DNA of 42,506 nucleotides from NCBI GenBank assembly GCA_020831775.1, contig JAFIFZ010000051.1:1-42506 (forward strand), written 5' to 3'. The notes under the pieces were generated by a model. That model was not told the origin of the DNA. It was given only the letters and a program-made list of their open reading frames with translations, and searched no databases. Below are positions 137 through 39,920 of the stretch, in pieces (the first letter of the stretch is position 1; each line of letters begins with the position of its first letter). This DNA is from Phycisphaerales bacterium. Its GTDB lineage: Bacteria > Planctomycetota > Phycisphaerae > Phycisphaerales > UBA1924. The position numbers and the translations under genes are program-made.

Positions 137-1423
137 CTAGCCGTGACGCCCAACGATCAGCGTCACATTGTGACCGCCGAACCCGAAGGTGTTGTTCATC
201 GCGTAGCGGACGGGCCGCTCCTTCGCTTCTTTCGCCACCAGATCGATGTCGAAGTCCGCGTCGGGCTCTTCCAGATTGGTCGTGGGGGCCACCACACCGT
301 CGCGGACGGCATGGATGCAGGCGATCAGTTCGACGGCCCCCGACGCCCCCAGGCTGTGCCCGTGCATCGACTTGGTCGAGCTCATCATCAGCTTCCCGCC
401 GGCGCTCTTCCTGGCGTGGTCGCCGAAGACCTTGCCAACCGCGGCCACCTCGGCCTTGTCGCCCAGGGGCGTCGCCGTCCCGTGGGCGTTGACATAGCCG
501 ATCTGGTCCGGGTTCAAACCCGCGTCTTCCAGGGCCCAACGCATCGAGCGGGCGGCGCCCATGCCCTCGGGGTCCGGGGCCGTGATGTGCCCGGCGTCGG
601 ACCCGTTGCCCGCCCCGACCAGCTCGGCCAGGATCGTCGCGCCGCGGGCCTTGGCGTGCTCCTCGGTCTCGAGCACATACATCGCGGCCCCCTCGGCCAG
701 CACGAACCCGTCGCGAGAGACATCGAACGGGCGTGAGGCGGTGGGGGCGTCCTTGTGCGGGCTCAGGGCCTTCATGGTCATGAACGCGCCGACGCAGAGG
801 GGCGTCACCGCCGCCTCGCACCCGCCAGCGACCATCACATCGGCACGCCCCAGGCGGATCTGCTCGACCGCGTCACCGATGGCGTGCCCGGAACTGGCGC
901 AGGCAGTCGCGTGCGCCGTCGCCGGGCCCCGCAGCCCGTAGCGGATCGAGATGTTCCCCGTCGTCGCGTTGATCATCAGGCGCGGGACCGTGAACGGGCT
1001 CATCCGGTCCGGACCACGGCTCATGAGGACTTCCTTGCCCTCCTCGATGGTCATGATCCCGCCGATGCCCGAGCCCACAATGACGCCGCAACGCTCGCTG
1101 TTTTCACGCGCGAAGTCGATGCCGGAATGGGTGACGGCCTGGTGGGCCGCCGCCAGGCCGAGCAGGGTGTTGCGGTCGAGCCGCTTGATCTCCCGCTTGT
1201 CGCACGCGCCGGCCTGGACCGGGTCCCAGTCCTTGACCTGCCCTGCGGCAAAAACGGTCCACTTGCCCGCGTACAGATCGAACGCGGGCCCCTCGAGCGG
1301 GGAGATGCCGCTGCGACCCTCACGCATCGACTCCCAAGTCGATGCGGCATCATGGCCGAGGTTCGTCACGGCGCCGTAGCCCGTGATCACGATCCGGGTC
1401 GATGGCGTGCGCGGGGTGCTCAT
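137..1423 (-). CDS. fabF: beta-ketoacyl-ACP synthase II (FabF)
   Basis: This is a condensing enzyme of type II fatty acid synthesis: it joins malonyl-ACP to an acyl-ACP in the cytoplasm. The 428-residue length is normal for FabF. The thiolase-fold Cys-His-His triad is visible: nucleophile Cys175 in ATACASSG, His314 in NAHGTATPLGD and His356 in KSMHGHSLGASGA. The C-terminal gating loop NNTFGFGGHN is also present. The start is ATG at 1423, preceded by GGAG. It lies 37 bases downstream of acpP on the same strand, the usual acpP-fabF pairing, and both are probably transcribed from the promoter at 1807-1836. FabB-like alternatives are less likely given the acpP linkage. Confidence 0.97.
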   Translation of the reverse strand: MSTPRTPSTRIVITGYGAVTNLGHDAASTWESMREGRSGISPLEGPAFDLYAGKWTVFAAGQVKDWDPVQAGACDKREIKRLDRNTLLGLAAAHQAVTHSGIDFARENSERCGVIVGSGIGGIMTIEEGKEVLMSRGPDRMSPFTVPRLMINATTGNISIRYGLRGPATAHATACASSGHAIGDAVEQIRLGRADVMVAGGCEAAVTPLCVGAFMTMKALSPHKDAPTASRPFDVSRDGFVLAEGAAMYVLETEEHAKARGATILAELVGAGNGSDAGHITAPDPEGMGAARSMRWALEDAGLNPDQIGYVNAHGTATPLGDKAEVAAVGKVFGDHARKSAGGKLMMSSTKSMHGHSLGASGAVELIACIHAVRDGVVAPTTNLEEPDADFDIDLVAKEAKERPVRYAMNNTFGFGGHNVTLIVGRHG

Positions 1424-1460
1424 GACATCTCCGGCCCCCTCCGGTCGGGGGCGAGCGGGG

Positions 1461-1712
1461 TCAGTTGGCCCCGCGGGCGGTCTTGATGTAGTCGATGGCG
1501 TGGCCGACCGTCTTCATCTTCTCGGCCTCTTCGTCGGGGACGGAGGTCTCGAACTCGTCCTCGAACTCCATCACGAGCTCAACAAAGTCGAGGCTGTCGG
1601 CGTGCAGATCGTCCACGAAGCGGGTCTCGCGGGTGATCTTGTCCTTCTCCGCGCCCATCTGCTCGGCGACGATCTCGATCACCTTCGATTCAATCTCTTG
1701 TTCGGTCACCAT
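1461..1712 (-). CDS. acpP: acyl carrier protein
   Basis: The gene encodes an 83-residue acidic acyl carrier protein, which carries growing fatty acyl chains on a phosphopantetheine arm and hands them to FabF encoded just downstream. The phosphopantetheine serine is Ser40 in the [15 protein letters not shown] motif (DSL box). Four-helix ACP features follow, including [18 protein letters not shown]. The ATG at 1712 is preceded by TTTGGAGATCC, a good ribosome binding site. The frame stays open upstream, but that extension is Arg/Gly/Pro-rich and unlike ACP, so it is not coding. The protein is slightly longer than E. coli AcpP (78 residues). Confidence 0.97.
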
Positions 1713-2090
1713 TGGATCTCCAAAGAGGTCGTTCGCGGGCCCTGCACGCAGCCCTGTCCGGCGGTCTGTCCGGTCAGGGCGTCGATACCCCGCTTCCAAG
1801 GCGGCGATTCTACCCGCCGCCCCGCTCGCGGGGCAACGACCACCGATCCCACCGACAAGATGCCCATAAATCGCGCCCCGGACCGCATAACGCCAGACCC
1901 CGTCCGGCTGTCGCGGCTGTGACGGGAAGCCCGCCCGTTCAGCACCCCGTCGACGAACCGTAGCGTTCAGACCGCCGTACCGTGAGTCGATCCTCGCCCC
2001 GGCCGGCAACAGCGGCCCGGACCGTCCCAAGGCCCCAAAACCGGGCCCCGGGCCTCCCCAAGACGCGATAAGACCGGGAAGAGGTGAGAG
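1713..2090. other. divergent intergenic region with two hairpins
   Basis: This 378-base stretch lies between the divergent acpP and DUF1444 genes and holds no convincing gene. Two inverted repeats are visible: 1751-1780 (GCCCTG...CAGGGC with CCGG inner pairing), which would lie in the acpP leader RNA, and 1819-1834 (GCCCCGC-tc-GCGGGGC), which falls inside the spacer of the predicted acpP promoter. No clear promoter for the rightward gene was found. Confidence 0.5.
1807..1836 (-). promoter_or_regulatory. putative sigma70-type promoter of acpP-fabF
   Basis: Read on the minus strand, TTGCCC (1836-1831) and TAGAAT (1812-1807) are separated by 18 bases. The -10 box matches the consensus at five of six positions. 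Transcription would start near 1800, giving a leader of roughly 90 nt before acpP. The spacer contains a perfect GC-rich palindrome that might bind a regulator. Confidence 0.4.
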
Positions 2091-2888
2091 ATGTCGGAAT
2101 TGCCACTTGAGCCCAAAGCCTTCGCCGAGACCGTCGCCGGCATGCTCCGCCGGATCCAGCCCGCCGCCGCTGTCGAGCTCGCGGGCCCCCGCGAACTCTC
2201 GGTGAACGGCAGGCGCCTCGACCTGGAAAACCTTTTCCGAATGGTCGTCCAGGAGCCAGACCGGGGCCTAGAAATCGCCGAGCACTACCTCGAACAGCTC
2301 TTCGCCGGCGACGCGATCCAGCTCGGCGACATGCCCTTCGAGCTCGCCAAGCCCAGGATCATGCCCAGGATCCAGCCCGAGAGCATCTTCGAAAACCTCT
2401 CCCGGGAACTGGTGGCCCATGTCCCCTATGTCAACGGGACGGTCGTGGTCTTCGTCACCGACCTCCCCCAGATGACCATCAGCATCACCACCGAGCAGGT
2501 GATCCGCTGGGGCGTCACCCCCGAGGACCTCGAGCTCATCGCCCGGGAGAACCTCGAGAAGTACGCCCCGGAGCTCGAAGTCAGGCTCGTCGAGTCCAAG
2601 GAGGGCGGTCGCGCGGCGATCGTCTCCGAGCAGGACGGCTACGACGCCGCGAGGCTGCTGCTCTCTGGCTTGTACGAGCGGCTGGCGCCGCAGCTCGGCG
2701 GGGACTTCTATGTCGCCACGCCCGCGCGAGACATGTTCGTCGCGATGAGCCGGGCGCCCGGAGACTTCGTCAACCGCCTCCGCGACCGCGTCAGCCAGGA
2801 CTACGAGCGTCTGCCCTACCCGATCACCAGCGAACTGTTCTATGTGACGCGTGACGGCGTCGCGGGAACGCTCGGTCTGGCCGCCTGA
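2091..2888 (+). CDS. DUF1444 family protein (YtpQ-like)
   Basis: A 265-residue soluble protein with no signal peptide or membrane segment. I recognise the DUF1444 pattern (the family of Bacillus subtilis YtpQ) in the central [16 protein letters not shown] segment, the [13 protein letters not shown] segment and [14 protein letters not shown] followed by a [13 protein letters not shown] tail. The biochemical function of the family is unknown. The start ATG at 2091 follows GAAGAGGTGAGAG, a good ribosome binding site. A strong terminator follows at 2925, so the gene is probably monocistronic. Confidence 0.8.
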
Positions 2889-2924
2889 CGAGGCGGCGGG
2901 GCGAGACATCCACACGGCTCCAGG

Positions 2925-2957
2925 AGAGGCCGGCCGGAGGAACCGGTCGGCCTCTTT
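2925..2957 (+). terminator. rho-independent terminator after the DUF1444 gene
   Basis: A 13-bp stem (AGAGGCCGGCCGG pairing with CCGGTCGGCCTCT, one G-U pair) with the loop AGGAA is followed by TT and a T-rich stretch (TTTCATT in all). It ends 37 bases after the stop codon. Confidence 0.75.
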
Positions 2958-3012
2958 CATTGCGCACGCTCTTCCTTCGCCGGTCGGATCCGCGAGCGAT
3001 ACCATCGCCGGC

Positions 3013-3708
3013 GTGATCCTCCTCGTCGACAACTACGACAGTTTCACCTGGAACCTCGTCCAGCGCATGGGCGAGCTCGATCCCTCCATCGAGCTCGACC
3101 GCGACCTGCTGGTCGTCCGCAACGACGCGATCACGCCCGATGAGGCCGAAGCCCTCGATAGCGGGCGGGGCCCCAGCCACCTTTTGATCTCCCCCGGCCC
3201 GTGCACCCCCGCAGAGGCGGGCGTCTGCCCGGCGATGATCGAACGCTTCGCGGGGCGGATCCCCGTCTTGGGCGTCTGCCTGGGCCACCAGTGCATCGGC
3301 GCCCTTCACGGGATGCCTGTCGTCCGCCACACCGTCCCCGTCCACGGCAAGACCAGCCTCGTCCACCACGACAACCAGGGCGTCTTCGCCGGGTTGCCCA
3401 ACCCCTTCCAGGCGACGCGCTACCACTCGCTGGTCGTCCCGCTGGAGGCGGCGCAGGCGGCCGGCGATCGGGGCTGGGCCGTCAGCGCCTGGACCGATGA
3501 GGAACTGCCCGGCGGCGAATCCCGGCGCGTCGTCATGGGCCTCCGCCGCGTCTGGGAAGGGCCTGCTTCAGACCGCCAGCCCCTCGAAGGCGTGCAGTTC
3601 CACCCCGAGAGCTTCATGACGCCCGAGGGCCCGAGGCTCCTGGCGAATTTTCTGGCGATGGGCGCGAGGCCCAGAACGCCGCTCGCCTCCTACGCTCCGC
3701 AGCCATGA
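3013..3708 (+). CDS. pabA: aminodeoxychorismate/anthranilate synthase glutamine amidotransferase subunit
   Basis: A class I glutamine amidotransferase of 231 residues that releases ammonia from glutamine for a partner chorismate enzyme (PabB in folate or TrpE in tryptophan synthesis); the two roles often share one subunit, and no partner gene is in the window. The catalytic residues are visible: oxyanion-strand motif LLISPGPCTPAEAG, nucleophile Cys89 in GVCLGHQCIG, and His197/Glu199 in VQFHPESFMTPEG. The N-terminus ILLVDNYDSFTWNL is diagnostic. The start is GTG at 3013: a longer open frame upstream is non-homologous and crosses the terminator. No obvious ribosome binding site precedes it. Its stop overlaps the next gene by four bases (ATGA). 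Confidence 0.92.
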   Translation: MILLVDNYDSFTWNLVQRMGELDPSIELDRDLLVVRNDAITPDEAEALDSGRGPSHLLISPGPCTPAEAGVCPAMIERFAGRIPVLGVCLGHQCIGALHGMPVVRHTVPVHGKTSLVHHDNQGVFAGLPNPFQATRYHSLVVPLEAAQAAGDRGWAVSAWTDEELPGGESRRVVMGLRRVWEGPASDRQPLEGVQFHPESFMTPEGPRLLANFLAMGARPRTPLASYAPQP

Positions 3709-4142
3709 TCGACCCGGCCCCGACAACAGACATCGACCCCCGCCTGGCCCGAGGCCTCCTCCTTGAGCGAGGCTCGGAGGTCGCGGGCAAGCCCGACCAC
3801 ATCGTCTTCGGCACCCACAACAACAACTACCAGCTCCACCTCCAGCCGACCGAGCCGGTCGACACCGAGGTCGGCAAGAGGCTCATCGGGACCGTCCGCG
3901 TTGACGCCCGCAAGATCGACCGCGTCCATACCGGCGGCCGCTTCATCGAGCCGGTCTACGGGCGCCCCAGGCGGGTTCAGGGCACCGTCGTCGCCATCAC
4001 CGACGAAACGGTCGTGGTCGACGCGGGCATCAAGATCCACCTCAGGCCGACCGAGCGCGACCAGAAGCCTTCGGGCTTCAAGCTCGGCGAACTCGTCGGG
4101 TGCGATGTCCACGCGGGCGCGACCTTCACGCCGGCGAGCTGA
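3705..4142 (+). CDS. conserved hypothetical protein, translationally coupled to pabA
   Basis: A 145-residue soluble protein whose ATG overlaps the pabA stop codon (ATGA), so it is probably translationally coupled and belongs to the same operon. I do not recognise a named family. The sequence reads as mostly beta strands: a central HIVFGTHNNNYQLHL segment, then VGKRLIGTVRVDARKIDRVHTGGRFIEPVYG and QGTVVAITDETVVVDAGIKIHLRP, which resembles a small beta-barrel with valine-rich strands, but that is only a guess from the residue pattern. No signal peptide, Cys cluster or catalytic motif is visible. Confidence 0.75.
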   Translation: MIDPAPTTDIDPRLARGLLLERGSEVAGKPDHIVFGTHNNNYQLHLQPTEPVDTEVGKRLIGTVRVDARKIDRVHTGGRFIEPVYGRPRRVQGTVVAITDETVVVDAGIKIHLRPTERDQKPSGFKLGELVGCDVHAGATFTPAS

Positions 4143-5237: not shown

Positions 5238-6176
5238 ATGACCCGCGGGCGATATCTCGTGCTCGGGGCCGACCGCAAGAGCGGCGAGCCGCGCAAGATG
5301 CTGATCGAGGCCAAGTCGCCCGAGGCGGCGCGATCGCTCGCCGAGAGCCGCGGGATGCTCATCAGCGTGATCGAGACGCGTTCTTCTGATGGGCCCGAAG
5401 CGACGACCCGCGAGCCGGTCAAGGCCGCGGCCGCCGGCGACTCCTCGCCACGCCCGATCCCCCGGCCCCGTCCGGCCGCTTCGATCGAGGAGCCCTCTGC
5501 GCCGCCCGAACCCGAGTCCGATTCGCCGCCCAGAGAATGGACCGACGACCGCATCGGCGAAAACCGTCGCGAGGGCCTGCGCACCGTCTTCCGCCTCTCG
5601 TCAAAGACACCAGAGATCGAGCCGCTCGAAGGCGAGGAACTGCTGGAAGTCTTCGACCCGTCCTTCCGCGAGATGGGGATCCTGCGCTCGTGGCTCGGGC
5701 GTTCACGGCGCATGGTCGTGACTTCGCGCCGCGTCGTCGTGATCGAACGCCGGCGCGGGCTGGACAACATCCGCGAAGCCCTGCACGAAAACAGCGACGG
5801 CGTGGAGGTTGTCAAGGGCGTCCGCTGGCTGCTGCTCGTTCCGGGGTTGCTGCTGTTCCTGCAGCCCGGGCTCATCGGCTTTGCTGCGTTGATCGGGATT
5901 GGGGTGGTCGGCTATCTCACCGAGCTCTTGGTTGGCCAGGTGGCTGGTGCCACAACCGCACAGGCGATGTCGTTGTACCTGATGCTGGGTGTCTCTGTTG
6001 TGATTCTCGTACTCTCGGTGTTGATGATTGTCTCATCTCGCGATCGACGCATCGGCCTGCGGACGCAGAGCGGCTTCGTCGGCGTCCGCATCCGCAGGAT
6101 CGGACCTTCGGAAACTTCAGCGCTGGTCGGCGCGATGGTCGCGGCCCGCGAGCAACAACGGGAGAATACGCGATGA
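5238..6176 (+). CDS. membrane protein with GspF/PilC-like N-terminal segment
   Basis: A 312-residue protein of unknown function. Residues 1-48 (YLVLGADRKSGEPRKMLIEA followed by KSPEAARSLAESRGMLI) resemble the short N-terminal segment found in GspF/PilC-type proteins, where a strand pair is followed by an A..AR..L...G pattern. A Pro-rich, probably disordered linker spans about 55-105. Residues 130-180 contain the RRMVVTSRRVVVIERRRG pattern seen in bacterial PH-like domains. Two hydrophobic segments lie near 195-225 (WLLLVPGLLLFLQPGLIGFA...) and 245-266. A further basic strand pattern, RTQSGFVGVRIRRIGP, follows. The stop overlaps the start of the next gene (ATGA), so the two products are probably made together. 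Confidence 0.7.
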   Translation: MTRGRYLVLGADRKSGEPRKMLIEAKSPEAARSLAESRGMLISVIETRSSDGPEATTREPVKAAAAGDSSPRPIPRPRPAASIEEPSAPPEPESDSPPREWTDDRIGENRREGLRTVFRLSSKTPEIEPLEGEELLEVFDPSFREMGILRSWLGRSRRMVVTSRRVVVIERRRGLDNIREALHENSDGVEVVKGVRWLLLVPGLLLFLQPGLIGFAALIGIGVVGYLTELLVGQVAGATTAQAMSLYLMLGVSVVILVLSVLMIVSSRDRRIGLRTQSGFVGVRIRRIGPSETSALVGAMVAAREQQRENTR

Positions 6177-6895
6177 AAGCTGTGTGGATCGCATCGTTGG
6201 CTCTGCTGACGCCGGCCGGTCCCGGCGGCGCGGGCGCCGGCGGCCGCGAGACGCCGCCCGAGCCGATGCTCGCTTCCGCACACGGCTTCGCGTTCGTCAA
6301 CAGCTTCGGCTGGACGCCGCCCGGCGGGTGGGCTCGCCTGCCGCTCCGTCACCGCTACGGGCTCTGCGGCGGGATGTCGCTGCTGGCGATGGACTACTTC
6401 CACGCGGGGGTCGAGCCGCCCCGTTTTAGCGAGACACCCGGCCCGGGCGACCCGCTCTTCGAACGGATCCTGATCCGACAGGCCGACTCGATGGGCTTCC
6501 TCGGGCGGCGGACGCTGCGATACCTCGCCTGGATGGCCCTGTCCGAAGGAGGGCCCGACGGAGCGCAGGCGGAGACCGCCCGCGCGTTCGGCGAGATGCT
6601 GCCCGACCTGGAGCGGGGCGAGCCCGTCGCGCTGGCCCTGATCTATGTCGGCTTCGCCGACCGCGGCGCCATCTGGCACAACCACCAGGTCGTCGCGACG
6701 GGCGCCCGCTACGAGGGCCGCGGCGTCTACACCGTCTCGCTCTACGACCCCAACTTCCCCGGCGACGACGATGTGCGTCTGGTCCTCCGATCCACCCCGG
6801 ACGGCTTCGAGACCACGCAGATGATCGGCGAACGCAGACGCCGCCATGTCCGGGGCTTCTTCAGGACGCCCTACCTGCCCAAGGATGTGAAGTAG
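6173..6895 (+). CDS. predicted secreted papain-like cysteine peptidase-like protein
   Basis: A 240-residue protein with an N-terminal signal-like segment (MKAVWIASLALLTPAGPGGA). I do not recognise a named family, but the order and spacing of motifs fit a papain-like fold: Cys65 in RYGLCGGMSLLAMDYF at the start of a helix, His171 in WHNHQVVATGA and Asp192/Asn194 in SLYDPNFPGDDD. The LCGGM..L..DYF segment looks like the nucleophile helix and NHQV... like the His strand. The start ATG at 6173 overlaps the stop of the membrane-protein gene before it by four bases, so the two are translationally coupled. Substrate unknown; the peptidase role is inferred from motif layout only. Confidence 0.65.
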   Translation: MKAVWIASLALLTPAGPGGAGAGGRETPPEPMLASAHGFAFVNSFGWTPPGGWARLPLRHRYGLCGGMSLLAMDYFHAGVEPPRFSETPGPGDPLFERILIRQADSMGFLGRRTLRYLAWMALSEGGPDGAQAETARAFGEMLPDLERGEPVALALIYVGFADRGAIWHNHQVVATGARYEGRGVYTVSLYDPNFPGDDDVRLVLRSTPDGFETTQMIGERRRRHVRGFFRTPYLPKDVK

Positions 6896-36271: not shown

Positions 36272-36499
36272 TCAGCCCGACTCCCGCGCGATCTCCCGCT
36301 TCAGCGTGTCGGGGTGCATCACCGGCAGCCGGTCCCGGCCGGTCTTGATCGCCAGCTTGATGTAGTCGCGGCACATGCCGCACCCCGTCCCGCACTTGGT
36401 CTTTGCAGACAGCTCATCGAAGTCCGCCCCCGTCTGGCGGTGCATCGCCAGCAGCGTCGAGAAGCGCACATCGTGGCAGACGCAGCGGTCGACACACAT
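36272..36499 (-). CDS. BFD-like [2Fe-2S]-binding protein, last gene of the cobalamin-riboswitch operon
   Basis: A 75-residue protein with the [2Fe-2S] fold of bacterioferritin-associated ferredoxin: ligands Cys6 and Cys8 (CVC), then 31 residues, then Cys40 and Cys43 (GTGCGMC), the C-X-C-X31-C-X2-C spacing of BFD. An additional Cys36 precedes the second pair. BFD delivers electrons to reduce ferric iron in bacterioferritin; the same fold occurs in other small electron carriers. Its ATG shares one base with the pseudopilin stop (TGATG), so it is translationally coupled. In a B12-controlled operon it could reduce cobalt in a corrinoid, but that is inference. A small hairpin lies just after the stop (36254-36269). 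Confidence 0.85.
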   Translation of the reverse strand: MCVDRCVCHDVRFSTLLAMHRQTGADFDELSAKTKCGTGCGMCRDYIKLAIKTGRDRLPVMHPDTLKREIARESG

Positions 36500-37317
36500 C
36501 AGCGCCACGCTTCCCAGTCGGGCACATACCAGGGCCCGTTCTCCGTGCCGACAGAGCCGATCCGCTGGCGCGGGTGCGTCAGCCATTCCGGATCGGCGCG
36601 GTGCATGGCGGCAGAGCCGTCCGCTCGTGCGCCCGACGCCGCGCCCTCGCCACTCGCGTGCCTGAATGAAGTGGTGGGGGCGTAGTTCTGGCGCCAGCGC
36701 CCGCGACCCTGGTACAGCATCGGCGGGTCGAGCAGCGCGCTGTTGATCATCGGCTCGCCGGGCAGCATCGTGTCGGCGAAGACCAGCAGCTCCGTCGGGC
36801 GTCGCAGGTCAGCGATCCGCCGCCAGGGCCGGTGCCCGATCGACGAGCTCCACCCCGGCGTGTGCTCGGGCGCGAGGTAGTACCCGTTGTACCCGTAGGT
36901 GCTGGTGATCGTCCGAGGCGTCCCCTGCGCCAGATAGCTCCCCCATGGCTGGCTCGGGCACTCGTAGACCGACCGCTCGCCCAGACTCTCCGACAGGTAG
37001 GGCGTCAGCAGCCCCTGCCTCGGATCGATGAACTCTGAGATGTTCCCCGCGGCCCCCCACCAGTACACGCTGTCGCCGGCGATGTCGGGCCCGGTGTACG
37101 CCGCGGGCATCGAGAGGTCGCGGTAGTCCCCCGCGTACATCGTCCAGCCGAAGACGAGTTGGCGCATGTTCGAGAGGCACCGCGCGTCGCGTGCCGCCGA
37201 CCTCGCCGCCCCGAGCGCTGGCAGCAACAACCCGATCAGCACGCCGATCACCGCGATCGAGATCAAGAGCTCGATCAGCGTGAACGCGGTGCGTGTTCGG
37301 CGGGGCGTGCCTGTCAT
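36499..37317 (-). CDS. type II pseudopilin-like protein (prepilin N-terminal methylation motif)
   Basis: A 272-residue protein of the planctomycete pseudopilin-like group. The N-terminus has a basic leader then [19 protein letters not shown]: cleavage would be after Ala11 (usually Gly), with Phe12 methylated and the Glu16 at position +5 conserved; the hydrophobic helix runs to about 32. [20 protein letters not shown] resembles the usual CXNNLRQI..A...Y pattern, and [20 protein letters not shown] is a variant of the H-X9-DG motif. Such proteins are processed by prepilin peptidase and assembled into envelope pseudopili or secretion systems. The start overlaps the stop of the beta-propeller gene by four bases, so the two are coupled. 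Confidence 0.85.
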
Positions 37318-38891
37318 CGCAACGGCTCCCGCATCAACCGCTCCTCATCACGCCGGATCTCGGCGACGATCGCATCGTGGTCGCGCTGGTCGACTGTGCC
37401 GTCGCGGTTGACATCGCGCTCGCCATCGCCGGCGACCCACGCGTAGAGGTCTTCAAGATCCACCACGCCGTCGCCGTTGACATCGAACGGTGACCTCGCC
37501 GCTGCGTCGAACGCGACAAGCCCCTGCGCCCCGGCAGTAAAAACCCTTCCCCCGCCGATCGCTGGCGAGTTGCCCCCGCCCTGGTAGGTGTCCCAGAAAA
37601 ACCCCGCCTCGCCCGGCGAGCGGTCCAGGTCGACCGACCGCATCGACGGGTACGCACCGACCTCGCTCCCCCCCGTCGAGATCACGCCGACAAACGCGAA
37701 CAGCCCGCCATCGGCGCGGATCACCAGCGGGCGTTGCGTCCATCCCCCCAGCGGCGTGTACTCGCCCGGATCGATCACGCCGTTGTTATTCGTGTCGTTC
37801 CAGGTCTCGATCGCGCTGTCCCAGAGCAAAACGGCGCTGTCGCCCCGGTCCTCGAACATCTGCAGCGAGGGCGTCGTGCCGAAGCCCGCAAGCCCCGTCG
37901 AGAGCAGCACGCGACCGTCGCCCAGCGCCAGCGGCACAGACGAGCTCCGGTTGCTCGCGACGCTCCACCGCAGCGTGCCGTCCTGCGCATCGAGCTTCAC
38001 GAGGTTCGCCGAAAAGCGGGTTCCCGAGAACGCGTAGGACGCGGCGAAGACCGCGAGCCCGCCCGCGTCTTCCGCAACGCTCACCCCGCCGAAAAACCCC
38101 TGACTGATCGTGTTGATGAAGACCCACACCGGCTGCGCCGTCCCGCCCGGCTGGTCGGCCTCGAACGCGAAGACACGCCCCGGCTCGATCCCCCCGAGCC
38201 CCGTGGTCGCGACAAACACGCGCCCGCCCGCGTACGCCGGCGACGCCCCGCTCGTCCGCCCGAGCACCGCCGACCAGACGATCTCGCCGGGGTCGTAGGG
38301 ATTGGTCGCCGCATCGAACGGATCCGCATTGATCGCGTACAGGCGCCCTTGGGAAAAGAACGGATCGTAATCGGTGATGAAGACGCGGTTCTCGCCCGGC
38401 CGGTCGCCGGTCACCAGCGGCGAGGCGTTGACGATGTCGTTCTGCAGCACCGTTTCCCAGACCACCGAGCCGTCGGCAAGGTCGTAGGCGACGACGGACC
38501 GATCCGCGCCGTACAGCACGACGCCGTGACCAGAGTCGATCGCGGGCGCCGACCACGAATCGGAGACGACAAACGGCGCCTCGGCGGTCCAGAGGAGCTG
38601 CCCGGTCGCCGCGTCGGCGCACACCAGATGCTCGATGTTGTCGATCAGCCCGACCGAGAAGACGCGCTGCCCGTCGGTCACAGGCCCCGACGCGGTGAAG
38701 AACTCGATCGGCCGCCCCAGTTGATCGTGCGTCAGCCGCCACAACGCCGAGCGCACGCCGACGCGATCGGCGGCGGGGATCGCGTTGCGGGCCGCATCGC
38801 CCGAGTACACCGGCCAATCGGCCGTCGCACTGGCGGTGCAGGCCGCGGCAATCAACAGGATGGACATTCTGCGGCACATCGTCGTCGTCAT
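37314..38891 (-). CDS. secreted PQQ-like beta-propeller protein with C-terminal dockerin
   Basis: A 525-residue secreted protein: signal peptide 1-24 ([14 protein letters not shown]). From about 30 to 465 it carries beta-propeller repeats with PQQ-like blade endings: [43 protein letters not shown] and [12 protein letters not shown], with LYAINA and VFAFEAD between them. A Ca-binding tail, about 469-514, has paired EF-hand-like loops [13 protein letters not shown] and [14 protein letters not shown], the GC-type dockerin seen in planctomycetes, which anchors proteins to a partner on the cell surface. The ATG at 38891 follows AGGGAGTGA. Upstream lies the hairpin at 38918-38947. Propellers of this shape can bind ligands at their central face; in a cobalamin-controlled operon the ligand could be a corrinoid, by analogy with surface propeller BtuG of Bacteroides. 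Confidence 0.85.
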
Positions 38892-38952: not shown

Positions 38953-39765
38953 TCACCGCCTCCGGCGCAGCATCCCAACCGCCGCGAGCCCGAGCAGCCC
39001 GAGCGTGCCGGGTGTCGGCACAACCGCGAAGCCGTCGATGTTCACGCGGAGTTCCGTCGTCGGGTCGCCGTCGTCGGCGACGCTCAGGCGCACGAAGTAG
39101 ATCTCATCGAGCATCGCCGCCGCGACATCGACGGGGATCCCGCCCCCTGAAGCGCCGTACAGCTCGCGGATCTGCTCAAGGCTCACGCCCGCGAAATCAT
39201 TGAGCGTCAGCGACGGGTCGACGGGCGTGAGGAAGTCGGTCTCGATCTGCCCGCGCACGCCGTCGAATGGGCCGCCGTCGCGGTAGCCCATCGTCGGGAA
39301 CAGCCGAGTATCAATGTCGCCCAGCGAAAAGAAGTCGACGCCGTCGCGGCTGACTTCGATCTGCGCCGAGCCCACGCCGAACATGTCCGGCGGGTCGCCC
39401 ACCGTGCCGCCCCCGGCAAACGCCGCGTTGGCGAAGACGATCAGGTCGACGCCGAACGGGTTGGAAGGGTCGTTCCGGATCGGCGAGTCGAATCGGACAG
39501 TCAGATGACCGCCCTCGCCGATCGACACGATCTCGTCGTTGCCGAAGGGCGGGCTGAAGGGCGACACCACGGCGGCGAACTGCCCGCCGGAGACATTCTC
39601 GCCCGTGAACCGCGTCGGCTCGCCGAGCACGGTCTGGGGGTTGTCAAAGCCCGACGCCGCCGTCGCGCCGGACGCGAACGAGATCACCTCGCTCGCCCAG
39701 GGCGACGCCGAAGCGCCGCCGGCCATCGCGCCCAGCAGGGCGCACGCAAACAAACGGTCTCTCAT
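38953..39765 (-). CDS. PEP-CTERM surface protein, first gene of the cobalamin-riboswitch operon
   Basis: A 270-residue exported protein. The signal peptide ends near ASA (residue 21). The C-terminus VPTPGTLGLLGLAAVGMLRRRR is a PEP-CTERM sorting signal: P-TP motif, hydrophobic helix and Arg cluster, recognised by an exosortase. The body is strand-rich, with core segments TVLGEPTRFTGENVSGGQFA, VSIGEGGHLTVRFDSPI, PFGVDLIVFANAAF and IEVSRDGVDFFSLGDI, a lectin- or discoidin-like pattern (LG.P, SLG.GG, D..VF.N.F, VS.DG) that recurs in planctomycete surface proteins. Ligand unknown. The ATG at 39765 is preferred over an in-frame GTG at 39777. The riboswitch lies upstream, so B12 controls it. A function in corrinoid binding is an inference from this control. 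Confidence 0.85.
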   Translation of the reverse strand: MRDRLFACALLGAMAGGASASPWASEVISFASGATAASGFDNPQTVLGEPTRFTGENVSGGQFAAVVSPFSPPFGNDEIVSIGEGGHLTVRFDSPIRNDPSNPFGVDLIVFANAAFAGGGTVGDPPDMFGVGSAQIEVSRDGVDFFSLGDIDTRLFPTMGYRDGGPFDGVRGQIETDFLTPVDPSLTLNDFAGVSLEQIRELYGASGGGIPVDVAAAMLDEIYFVRLSVADDGDPTTELRVNIDGFAVVPTPGTLGLLGLAAVGMLRRRR

Positions 39766-39920
39766 CTCTCGAACCACTTTCCGCTCGTTCTGCTTCTCGC
39801 GGCAGAACGGTCCCCGCCAAGAACGCCGGGAAACGGCCCGGGCCGTGGCGCTCGCGTGGGCTCGATGTCAGCGGGAGGCAGCTGCGCGGGGACGGGCGCA
39901 AACCAACAGCGCTGACGCCC

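Follow-up and report, generated by a model that had tools for sequence, protein, structure and literature searches.

The window, the whole stretch of 42,506 nt of Phycisphaerales DNA analysed here, carries on its reverse strand four tightly packed genes, headed by a gene for a BtuH-like surface protein and closed by one for a BFD-like [2Fe-2S] protein. The first gene (38953..39765, minus strand) is a 270-aa open reading frame (ORF) with its ATG at 39765 and its stop at 38953, named here from family and fold evidence. Its N-terminus resembles a signal peptide by eye, and an AlphaFold2 model and VIA alignments place a BtuH-type domain at aa 24-249 (39019..39696, minus strand). The frame stands at the head of an operon behind a cobalamin riboswitch and is a genuine gene, as an earlier note made from the sequence alone had taken it to be. 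That note also called the product a PEP-CTERM protein. The C-terminal sorting tail (38956..39021, minus strand), VVPTPGTLGLLGLAAVGMLRRRR, does resemble the motif, but falls under both curated cut-offs (PF07589, E 0.0066, 16.9 vs 20.7 bits; TIGR02595, 15 vs 16 bits); the VPEP tail is clear in several relatives, and in others its place is taken by a dockerin-like one. After a gap of 61 nt follows a gene for a 525-aa PQQ_2 (BamB-type) beta-propeller with an EF-hand/dockerin-like tail (37314..38891, minus strand; PF13360, E 2.6e-20). By its coordinates, the stop of the propeller gene is overlapped by the start of the third gene (36499..37317, minus strand), which encodes a 272-aa DUF1559 protein with a type IV prepilin N-terminus (AFTLIE) that exceeds both Pfam cut-offs (PF07596, E 6.6e-6, 26.8 vs 23.3 bits; PF07963, E 6.8e-6, 25.9 vs 21.2 bits). 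The BFD-like gene (36272..36586, minus strand; PF04324, E 1.1e-5) scores 26.2 against a Pfam cut-off of 26 bits, and its true start is probably an internal ATG at 36499, which overlaps the prepilin stop by coordinates.

The riboswitch aptamer at the head of the operon (RF00174; 39935..40167, minus strand) is matched by cmscan over the full model (1-189) at 72.1 bits and E 5.3e-16, against a gathering threshold of 31.5 bits. It ends 169 nt before the ATG on the same strand and is the sole RF00174 match detected in its genome, an assembly of 84 contigs that is 95% complete and in which the BtuH-like domain is likewise single copy (E 0.001). A perfect 8-bp inverted repeat, read in the sequence at 39786..39809 (minus strand), ends 20 nt before the ATG and is paired in the minimum free energy (MFE) fold; this may be the expression platform, and outside the aptamer the leader is no more stably folded than shuffled sequences (z -0.84).

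Searched by itself against Pfam, NCBIfam and the PDB, the window protein returned nothing relevant beyond its sorting tail and chance matches; in Pfam, neither an F5/8-type C or CBM match nor a PF14717 (DUF4465) match appeared at E <= 1. As a query it matched 18 of 294 Planctomycetota genomes, in 16 of which (its own included) the domain is present. The other two, represented by L018 and L019, matched by their C-terminal tails only and were rejected as domain members; no riboswitch was found in the stretch scanned at either, and their genomes (G160, G231) have one riboswitch each, elsewhere. Full-length profiles (A1, A2) were also discarded, being dominated by dockerin tails, even if A2 had already found 8blw_B at E 1.8e-4, and profiles were therefore trimmed to the domain (A4, from 16 sequences; A7, from 43 sequences; A9, from L014, L016 and L017). 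Against the PDB, A4 recovered 8blw_B (BtuG1/BtuGH) at E 3.3e-5 and 7biz_A (BtuH2) at E 0.11; up to E 10, the other matches came to one antibody chain (E 1.2) and no CBM. The sequence link from the window protein to BtuH passes through L014, L016 and L017, and once these bridging sequences were removed, a profile of the remaining 13 short members found nothing in the PDB. L017, which has a riboswitch upstream too, is matched by the window protein at E 3.4e-7 and itself matches 8blw at E 1.1e-13 and 7biz at E 1.4e-11, and hhalign joins A7 to A9 with a probability of 99.6 and E 1.7e-23 across 106 columns, in the N-terminal half only. As far as sequence comparison goes, we consider this bridge firm: homology to the H-domain of BtuH2 and BtuGH is reached through the intermediates, and from neither the window protein nor the 13 short members alone. 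We also noted a weak similarity to the LIC_13355 lipoprotein family in 6 of 15 members of A2 (best E 4e-4, far below the cut-off) and in L113 at 2022-2969; by sequence, this family is possibly a further distant relative of the domain.

How closely the domain follows cobalamin riboswitches was tabulated in two collections. The first, sample 1, comprises the 294 Planctomycetota genomes, chosen evenly across the phylum, of which 34 are domain-positive with profile A4 at E 0.001. With four genomes left out because of contig edges or fragments (G111, G053, G091, G282), a riboswitch precedes the domain gene, on its strand, in 29 of the 30 domain-bearing genomes that can be tested (G000, G002, G034, G095, G172, G270, G278, G077, G251, G142, G157, G209, G261, G287, G011, G045, G135, G236, G103, G066, G096, G085, G249, G235, G290, G167, G199, G128 and G073). 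In the remaining genome, G274, no riboswitch was found in the 17.5 kb fetched, and the domain match is itself weak (34 bits over 70 positions of a 5243-aa frame). The distance from riboswitch to domain reaches about 1.9 kb in this sample, except that it is about 4.6 kb in G235 and G290, whose long ORFs have the domain close to their end; at some loci one gene intervenes. The first homologue stretches, of 2.2-3.8 kb, had given RF00174 on the gene's strand in 13 of 15. At L016 (G278) the riboswitch lies just beyond the stretch scanned, and L010 (G111) meets a contig edge, with the genome's only riboswitch near the edge of another contig and pointing outwards.

In the second collection, a same-strand riboswitch stands 115-1009 nt before the domain match at 37 of 42 loci, as paired by genome, coordinates and strand, contig names not being used. 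Four of its loci (L044, L060, L063, L064) are contigs of sample-1 genomes (G251, G077, G209, G157, respectively), and leaving them aside gives 33 of 38. Counted among the 37 is L024, where RF00174 scores 27.3 bits, under the gathering threshold. The upstream contig measures just 449, 105 and 252 nt at L025, L047 and L056, which are without a riboswitch, and L029 and L057 have enough upstream room and no riboswitch match even at E <= 1. RF00174 itself occurs in 255 of the 294 genomes (250 over the cut-off) and is thus far commoner than the domain, which stands without a riboswitch in one testable genome of sample 1 and at two loci of the second collection. The supposition that the domain tracks B12 riboswitches is accordingly supported by a purpose-built profile and the tabulation of its matches, and a lack of enrichment near such riboswitches is ruled out by both counts, which share four loci. 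Two further observations belong here. Both G209 and G261 possess a second cobalamin riboswitch (L078 10261-10462, minus strand; L079 1087-1289, plus strand), each preceding genes that by eye resemble those of anaerobic ribonucleotide reductase, nrdD and nrdG. Additionally, L031, L036 and L056 are titled as Bacteroidia, Leptolyngbya and Chitinophaga and have operons like the planctomycete ones; their labels or bins are probably wrong.

The neighbours of the domain gene were surveyed by BLAST clustering at the 42 loci of the second collection together with the window, 43 in all. A homologue of the prepilin gene lies downstream on the same strand at 39 of these; L023 and L030 have too little contig, and L024 and L062 have none within 10 kb. 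A motif rule for the prepilin gave 37 operonic matches in the 43 loci and none elsewhere in their 639,606 bases, which rules out chance as the source of the linkage; the rule missed two members of the BLAST cluster of 39 (L037, L038) and gave one second, doubtful match (L076). Among the 15 divergent stretches (L101-L115), most of which end within about 700 nt after the domain gene, a prepilin-like ORF occurs in L113 alone. The AlphaFold2 model of the prepilin has a pLDDT of 70 and no fold match at E <= 0.001. Homologues of the BFD-like [2Fe-2S] protein are present at 6 of 43 loci, the window included. In L074 a ComF-like gene (5994-6767, minus strand; double zinc ribbon and phosphoribosyltransferase) follows the prepilin, and ORFs similar to it by eye are found in a like position in L073 and L075.

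Other arrangements occur at further loci. In L113 (G167), positions 877-3915 hold a riboswitch, a DUF1559-like prepilin, a divergent BtuH-like PEP-CTERM protein and, directly after the latter, a DUF4465 PEP-CTERM protein (PF14717, E 4.7e-56) that keeps the TPAYF loop, thereby placing a second family of B12 binders in a planctomycete PEP-CTERM setting. G235 and G290 each have the domain inside a single ORF of about 1400 aa, and that of G235 matches the surface-layer protein 1l0q at residues 53-156 (E 1.3e-9) and has one PKD domain; stronger-scoring short WD-40 matches at 907-956 are taken as low-weight repeats. An apparent domain-propeller fusion in L025 (817-aa ORF) was rejected: along with a PEP-CTERM tail, the ORF has another signal-like segment midway, and its sequence gives the appearance of two genes run together through loss of a stop in a draft contig. 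In L102 (4119-5483), L104 (3700-5055), L071 (1394-2539) and L072 (8110-9180), genes situated between the riboswitch and the BtuH-like one encode products that look propeller-like by eye. None of them matches a propeller family in Pfam, and for the L072 protein, a propeller by eye, neither the PDB nor Pfam gave a significant match; it would seem that a BtuG-like slot is filled here by a second type of propeller. A Trp-rich secreted protein of at least about 190 aa, with no Pfam domain, is encoded in L074 (8745-9338, minus strand), L075 (8509-9138, minus strand) and L077 (1-654, minus strand). In L074 and L075, where the product has PEP-CTERM-like tails, its gene separates the riboswitch from the BtuH-like gene, and in L077 it follows a riboswitch; the protein is possibly another corrinoid binder.

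The domain was next considered as a structure. An AlphaFold2 model built from 43 sequences is of high confidence (pLDDT 94.3, pTM 0.91). Foldseek against the PDB gave a single match at E <= 0.001, again 8blw_B (1.1e-5), though the two superpose poorly (TM 0.39 by query, rmsd 14.3); CBM32 chains fill many rows below it, and 7biz is absent, among the best 50 matches listed. VIA-align placed 7biz_B first (321-591; Z 11.6, rmsd 3.9, 145 residues aligned) and 8blw_B second (396-659; Z 11.1, rmsd 3.2, 145 aligned), followed by carbohydrate-binding and other discoidin-like modules at Z <= 9.9 with about 120 aligned. From this ranking we take the predicted fold to be a discoidin-like sandwich nearest to the BtuH domains, with a modest lead over the carbohydrate-binding modules (BtuH2 leads by about 1.7 Z and about 25 more residues). 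The lectin- or discoidin-like sandwich expected in the earlier note is thus upheld at the level of a model, and in the comparison which that note had proposed, with BtuH on one side and carbohydrate-binding modules on the other, BtuH2 and BtuGH rank higher. Its idea of a corrinoid-related surface domain stands insofar as the domain is riboswitch-linked, but needs revision in that relatives are known, the domain being a divergent one of BtuH type.

So modest a structural lead invites the thought that the protein is a sugar-binding (CBM32/F-lectin-like) adhesin that binds no B12 and whose expression is tied to B12, for instance for attachment to B12-producing algae or bacteria. The scores of the discoidin-like carbohydrate-binding modules and the many CBM32 rows in Foldseek would suit such a role, as would the co-operonic prepilin and the dockerin and PEP-CTERM tails. 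We nevertheless hold it improbable: BtuH2 and BtuGH top the VIA ranking with the longer alignment, the profile recovers BtuG1 and BtuH2 without any CBM, Pfam yields neither F5/8-type C nor CBM, and in G167 a DUF4465 gene adjoins. That the domain folds as a sugar-binding module whose sugar site is conserved is disfavoured.

The body of the protein had been described in the earlier note as holding a recurring set of motifs, LG.P, SLG.GG, D..VF.N.F and VS.DG. All are present, but the spellings need correction and there is no repetition within one protein: each motif occurs once per protein, and what recurs does so between relatives. In the window protein LG.P reads VLGEP and VS.DG reads VSRDG; SLG.GG reads SIGEGG, SLG being seen in relatives such as L003; and D..VF.N.F reads D-L-I-V-F-A-N-A-A-F, that is, N..F and not N.F, a spacing that does occur in 33 of 43 aligned members. 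The D and N of D..VF.N are invariant in all 43 aligned homologues, and the motifs are therefore beyond chance.

This last motif aligns with part of a published binding site. The B12 contacts of BtuH2 are given as Gln333, Asn399, Phe401, His476, Tyr510, Trp511, Trp577 and Leu578, of which Asn399 touches the phosphate of B12 in the structure (PMC8941943). Our mapping assumes that positions in the PDB chain are offset by 100 from the published numbering. With that offset, Asn399 and Phe401 are the N and F of GNAF, which is the D..VF.N.F motif above, Gln333 is the Q of PAPGQF, and Trp577/Leu578 fall on GWLG; since the residue types are right at all of these positions, the offset was taken as correct. 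In alignments to 7biz, the equivalent of Asn399 is Asn113 of the window protein (codon 39427..39429, minus strand), which is invariant across the 43 members and, read by eye, present in all 14 divergent members as well. By alignment, then, the residue that contacts the phosphate in BtuH2 is conserved in the family. At the position of Phe401, 33 of 43 members have Phe and the window protein has Ala. Of the three bridging sequences, L014 and L016 retain Gln333, which the window protein does not; for Trp577/Leu578, no equivalent can be recognised in the window protein.

With several published contacts unrecognisable, one could suppose that the protein is a BtuH homologue that has lost binding and serves as a corrinoid-responsive surface protein with another job, such as the biogenesis of vesicles, stalks or pili when B12 is limiting, for which the prepilin as the most constant partner in close relatives (39 of 43 loci) and the precedent of BtuK2, which does not bind though similar to the B12 binder BtuK1 (PMC12751083), could be cited; the universal Asn at the phosphate contact and the strict riboswitch coupling across the phylum make this highly improbable in our estimation.

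The setting in which uptake would take place differs from that of Bacteroides. A TonB Plug domain (PF07715), as the btuB of the Bacteroides BtuB/BtuG/BtuH locus would require, was not found in the window's own genome or elsewhere in its family, of which 7 genomes were sampled (that one included), and 7 of the 11 domain-bearing genomes first tested were without one. Across sample 1, Plug is absent in 18 of 34 domain-positive and 60 of 260 domain-negative genomes (Fisher p 6e-4, phylogeny ignored), and in 13 of 23 vs 29 of 132 where completeness is >= 90% (p 0.0015, phylogeny again ignored), these absences being read from draft genomes, which may miss genes. Against a simple rule, Plug domains are present in 16 of the 34 domain-bearing genomes (G077, G209, G287 and others). 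CbiC was found in none of 11 domain-bearing genomes tested, the window's own included, and by this single marker synthesis of the corrin ring is therefore unlikely. All 11 have FecCD-type permeases. The window's own genome has four B12-binding-domain matches, and in it a FecCD-type permease and an ORF of about 1270 aa that contains a B12-binding domain, taken for MetH, are some 1.2 kb apart. Given that no Plug was found in this genome and six relatives and that its sole detected cobalamin riboswitch is the one described here, the operon is the obvious candidate for passage of a cofactor of >1 kDa across the outer membrane.

We consider it likely that the first gene encodes a divergent BtuH-type domain, held at the cell surface and repressed by B12, that captures corrinoids for import. 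The riboswitch, the order of the genes, homology to BtuH, the fold and the conserved linkage to B12 riboswitches are shown by the results above; B12 binding, surface display, the OFF direction of the switch and hand-over to an importer are what we infer within this reading. The protein would be secreted and held at the surface by its PEP-CTERM-like tail, or by a dockerin-like one in many relatives. Low cellular B12 would cause the riboswitch to permit expression of the operon, and the displayed protein would then capture corrinoids outside the cell, the invariant Asn113 holding the phosphate/nucleotide loop as Asn399 does in BtuH2. The captured corrinoid would later be imported.

How it might cross the outer membrane can be extended only tentatively. 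For this step, the most constant of the candidate partners is the prepilin, and one could envisage a TonB-independent acquisition of B12 in B12-auxotrophic planctomycetes that combines a BtuH-type catcher, a dedicated DUF1559 prepilin and a propeller in the BtuG slot. In such an arrangement, the prepilin might display the BtuH-type protein or carry the ligand across the outer membrane in a pilus- or pseudopilus-like device, in the manner of competence pili, which carry DNA across that membrane. The two grounds for this extension are gene linkage and Plug absence, and we think it rather unlikely to hold.

Returning to the favoured reading, a surface-held BtuH-type corrinoid catcher, its place among known systems can be set out. 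BtuH is described from Bacteroidetes and three Firmicutes in a survey of 313 gut species, in which >80% of the homologues share an operon with btuB (PMC8941943). Our search, run outside most subscription journals, found no literature linking BtuH or cobalamin riboswitches with planctomycetes, and the titles and abstract openings of papers on cobalamin riboswitches or vitamin B12 together with PEP-CTERM describe nothing like the present operon. The window protein shares its general fold with CBM32/discoidin-type modules (Z up to 9.9), but differs in the lower Z and shorter alignment to them, the want of a Pfam match and the B12-riboswitch context. Like the jelly-roll proteins of the DUF4465 (BtuJ) family (PF14717), whose B12 binding is published (PMC13398666), it is a secreted beta-sandwich tied to B12, whereas it has no PF14717 match and, by eye, lacks their published HI-loop GTPAYF (PMC13398666). 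BtuG1/BtuGH (BT_1490; PDB 8blw chain B), a propeller fused to a BtuH domain in which each of the two halves binds cobalamin (PMC12751083), is its best profile and Foldseek match; the window likewise has a beta-propeller gene next to that of the domain, and the surface-layer match of G235 falls within the domain's own ORF. Unlike in BtuGH, the window encodes its PQQ_2 propeller as a protein of its own, and nothing found here corresponds to BtuB1, with which BtuG1 forms a complex in its solved structure. The long ORF of G235, with its 1l0q match and PKD domain, recalls both BtuGH and BtuH2. To BtuH2 (BT_1956; PDB 7biz, C-terminal domain, from Bacteroides thetaiotaomicron) the resemblance lies in fold, in sequence via L017, in Asn399 and in encoding within a B12-riboswitch-linked locus. 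The window protein departs from it in having no PKD domains, no lipobox (by eye) and shortened loops, in corrin-contacting aromatics that are unrecognisable, in a genome with no Plug domain found, and in its PEP-CTERM-like tail, for which relatives may have a dockerin-like one. The BtuH domain itself is thus known, and what is new is its combination with a different anchoring, different partners and a different uptake setting, whereby BtuH-type scavenging of B12 would extend to environmental bacteria of another phylum, the Planctomycetota.
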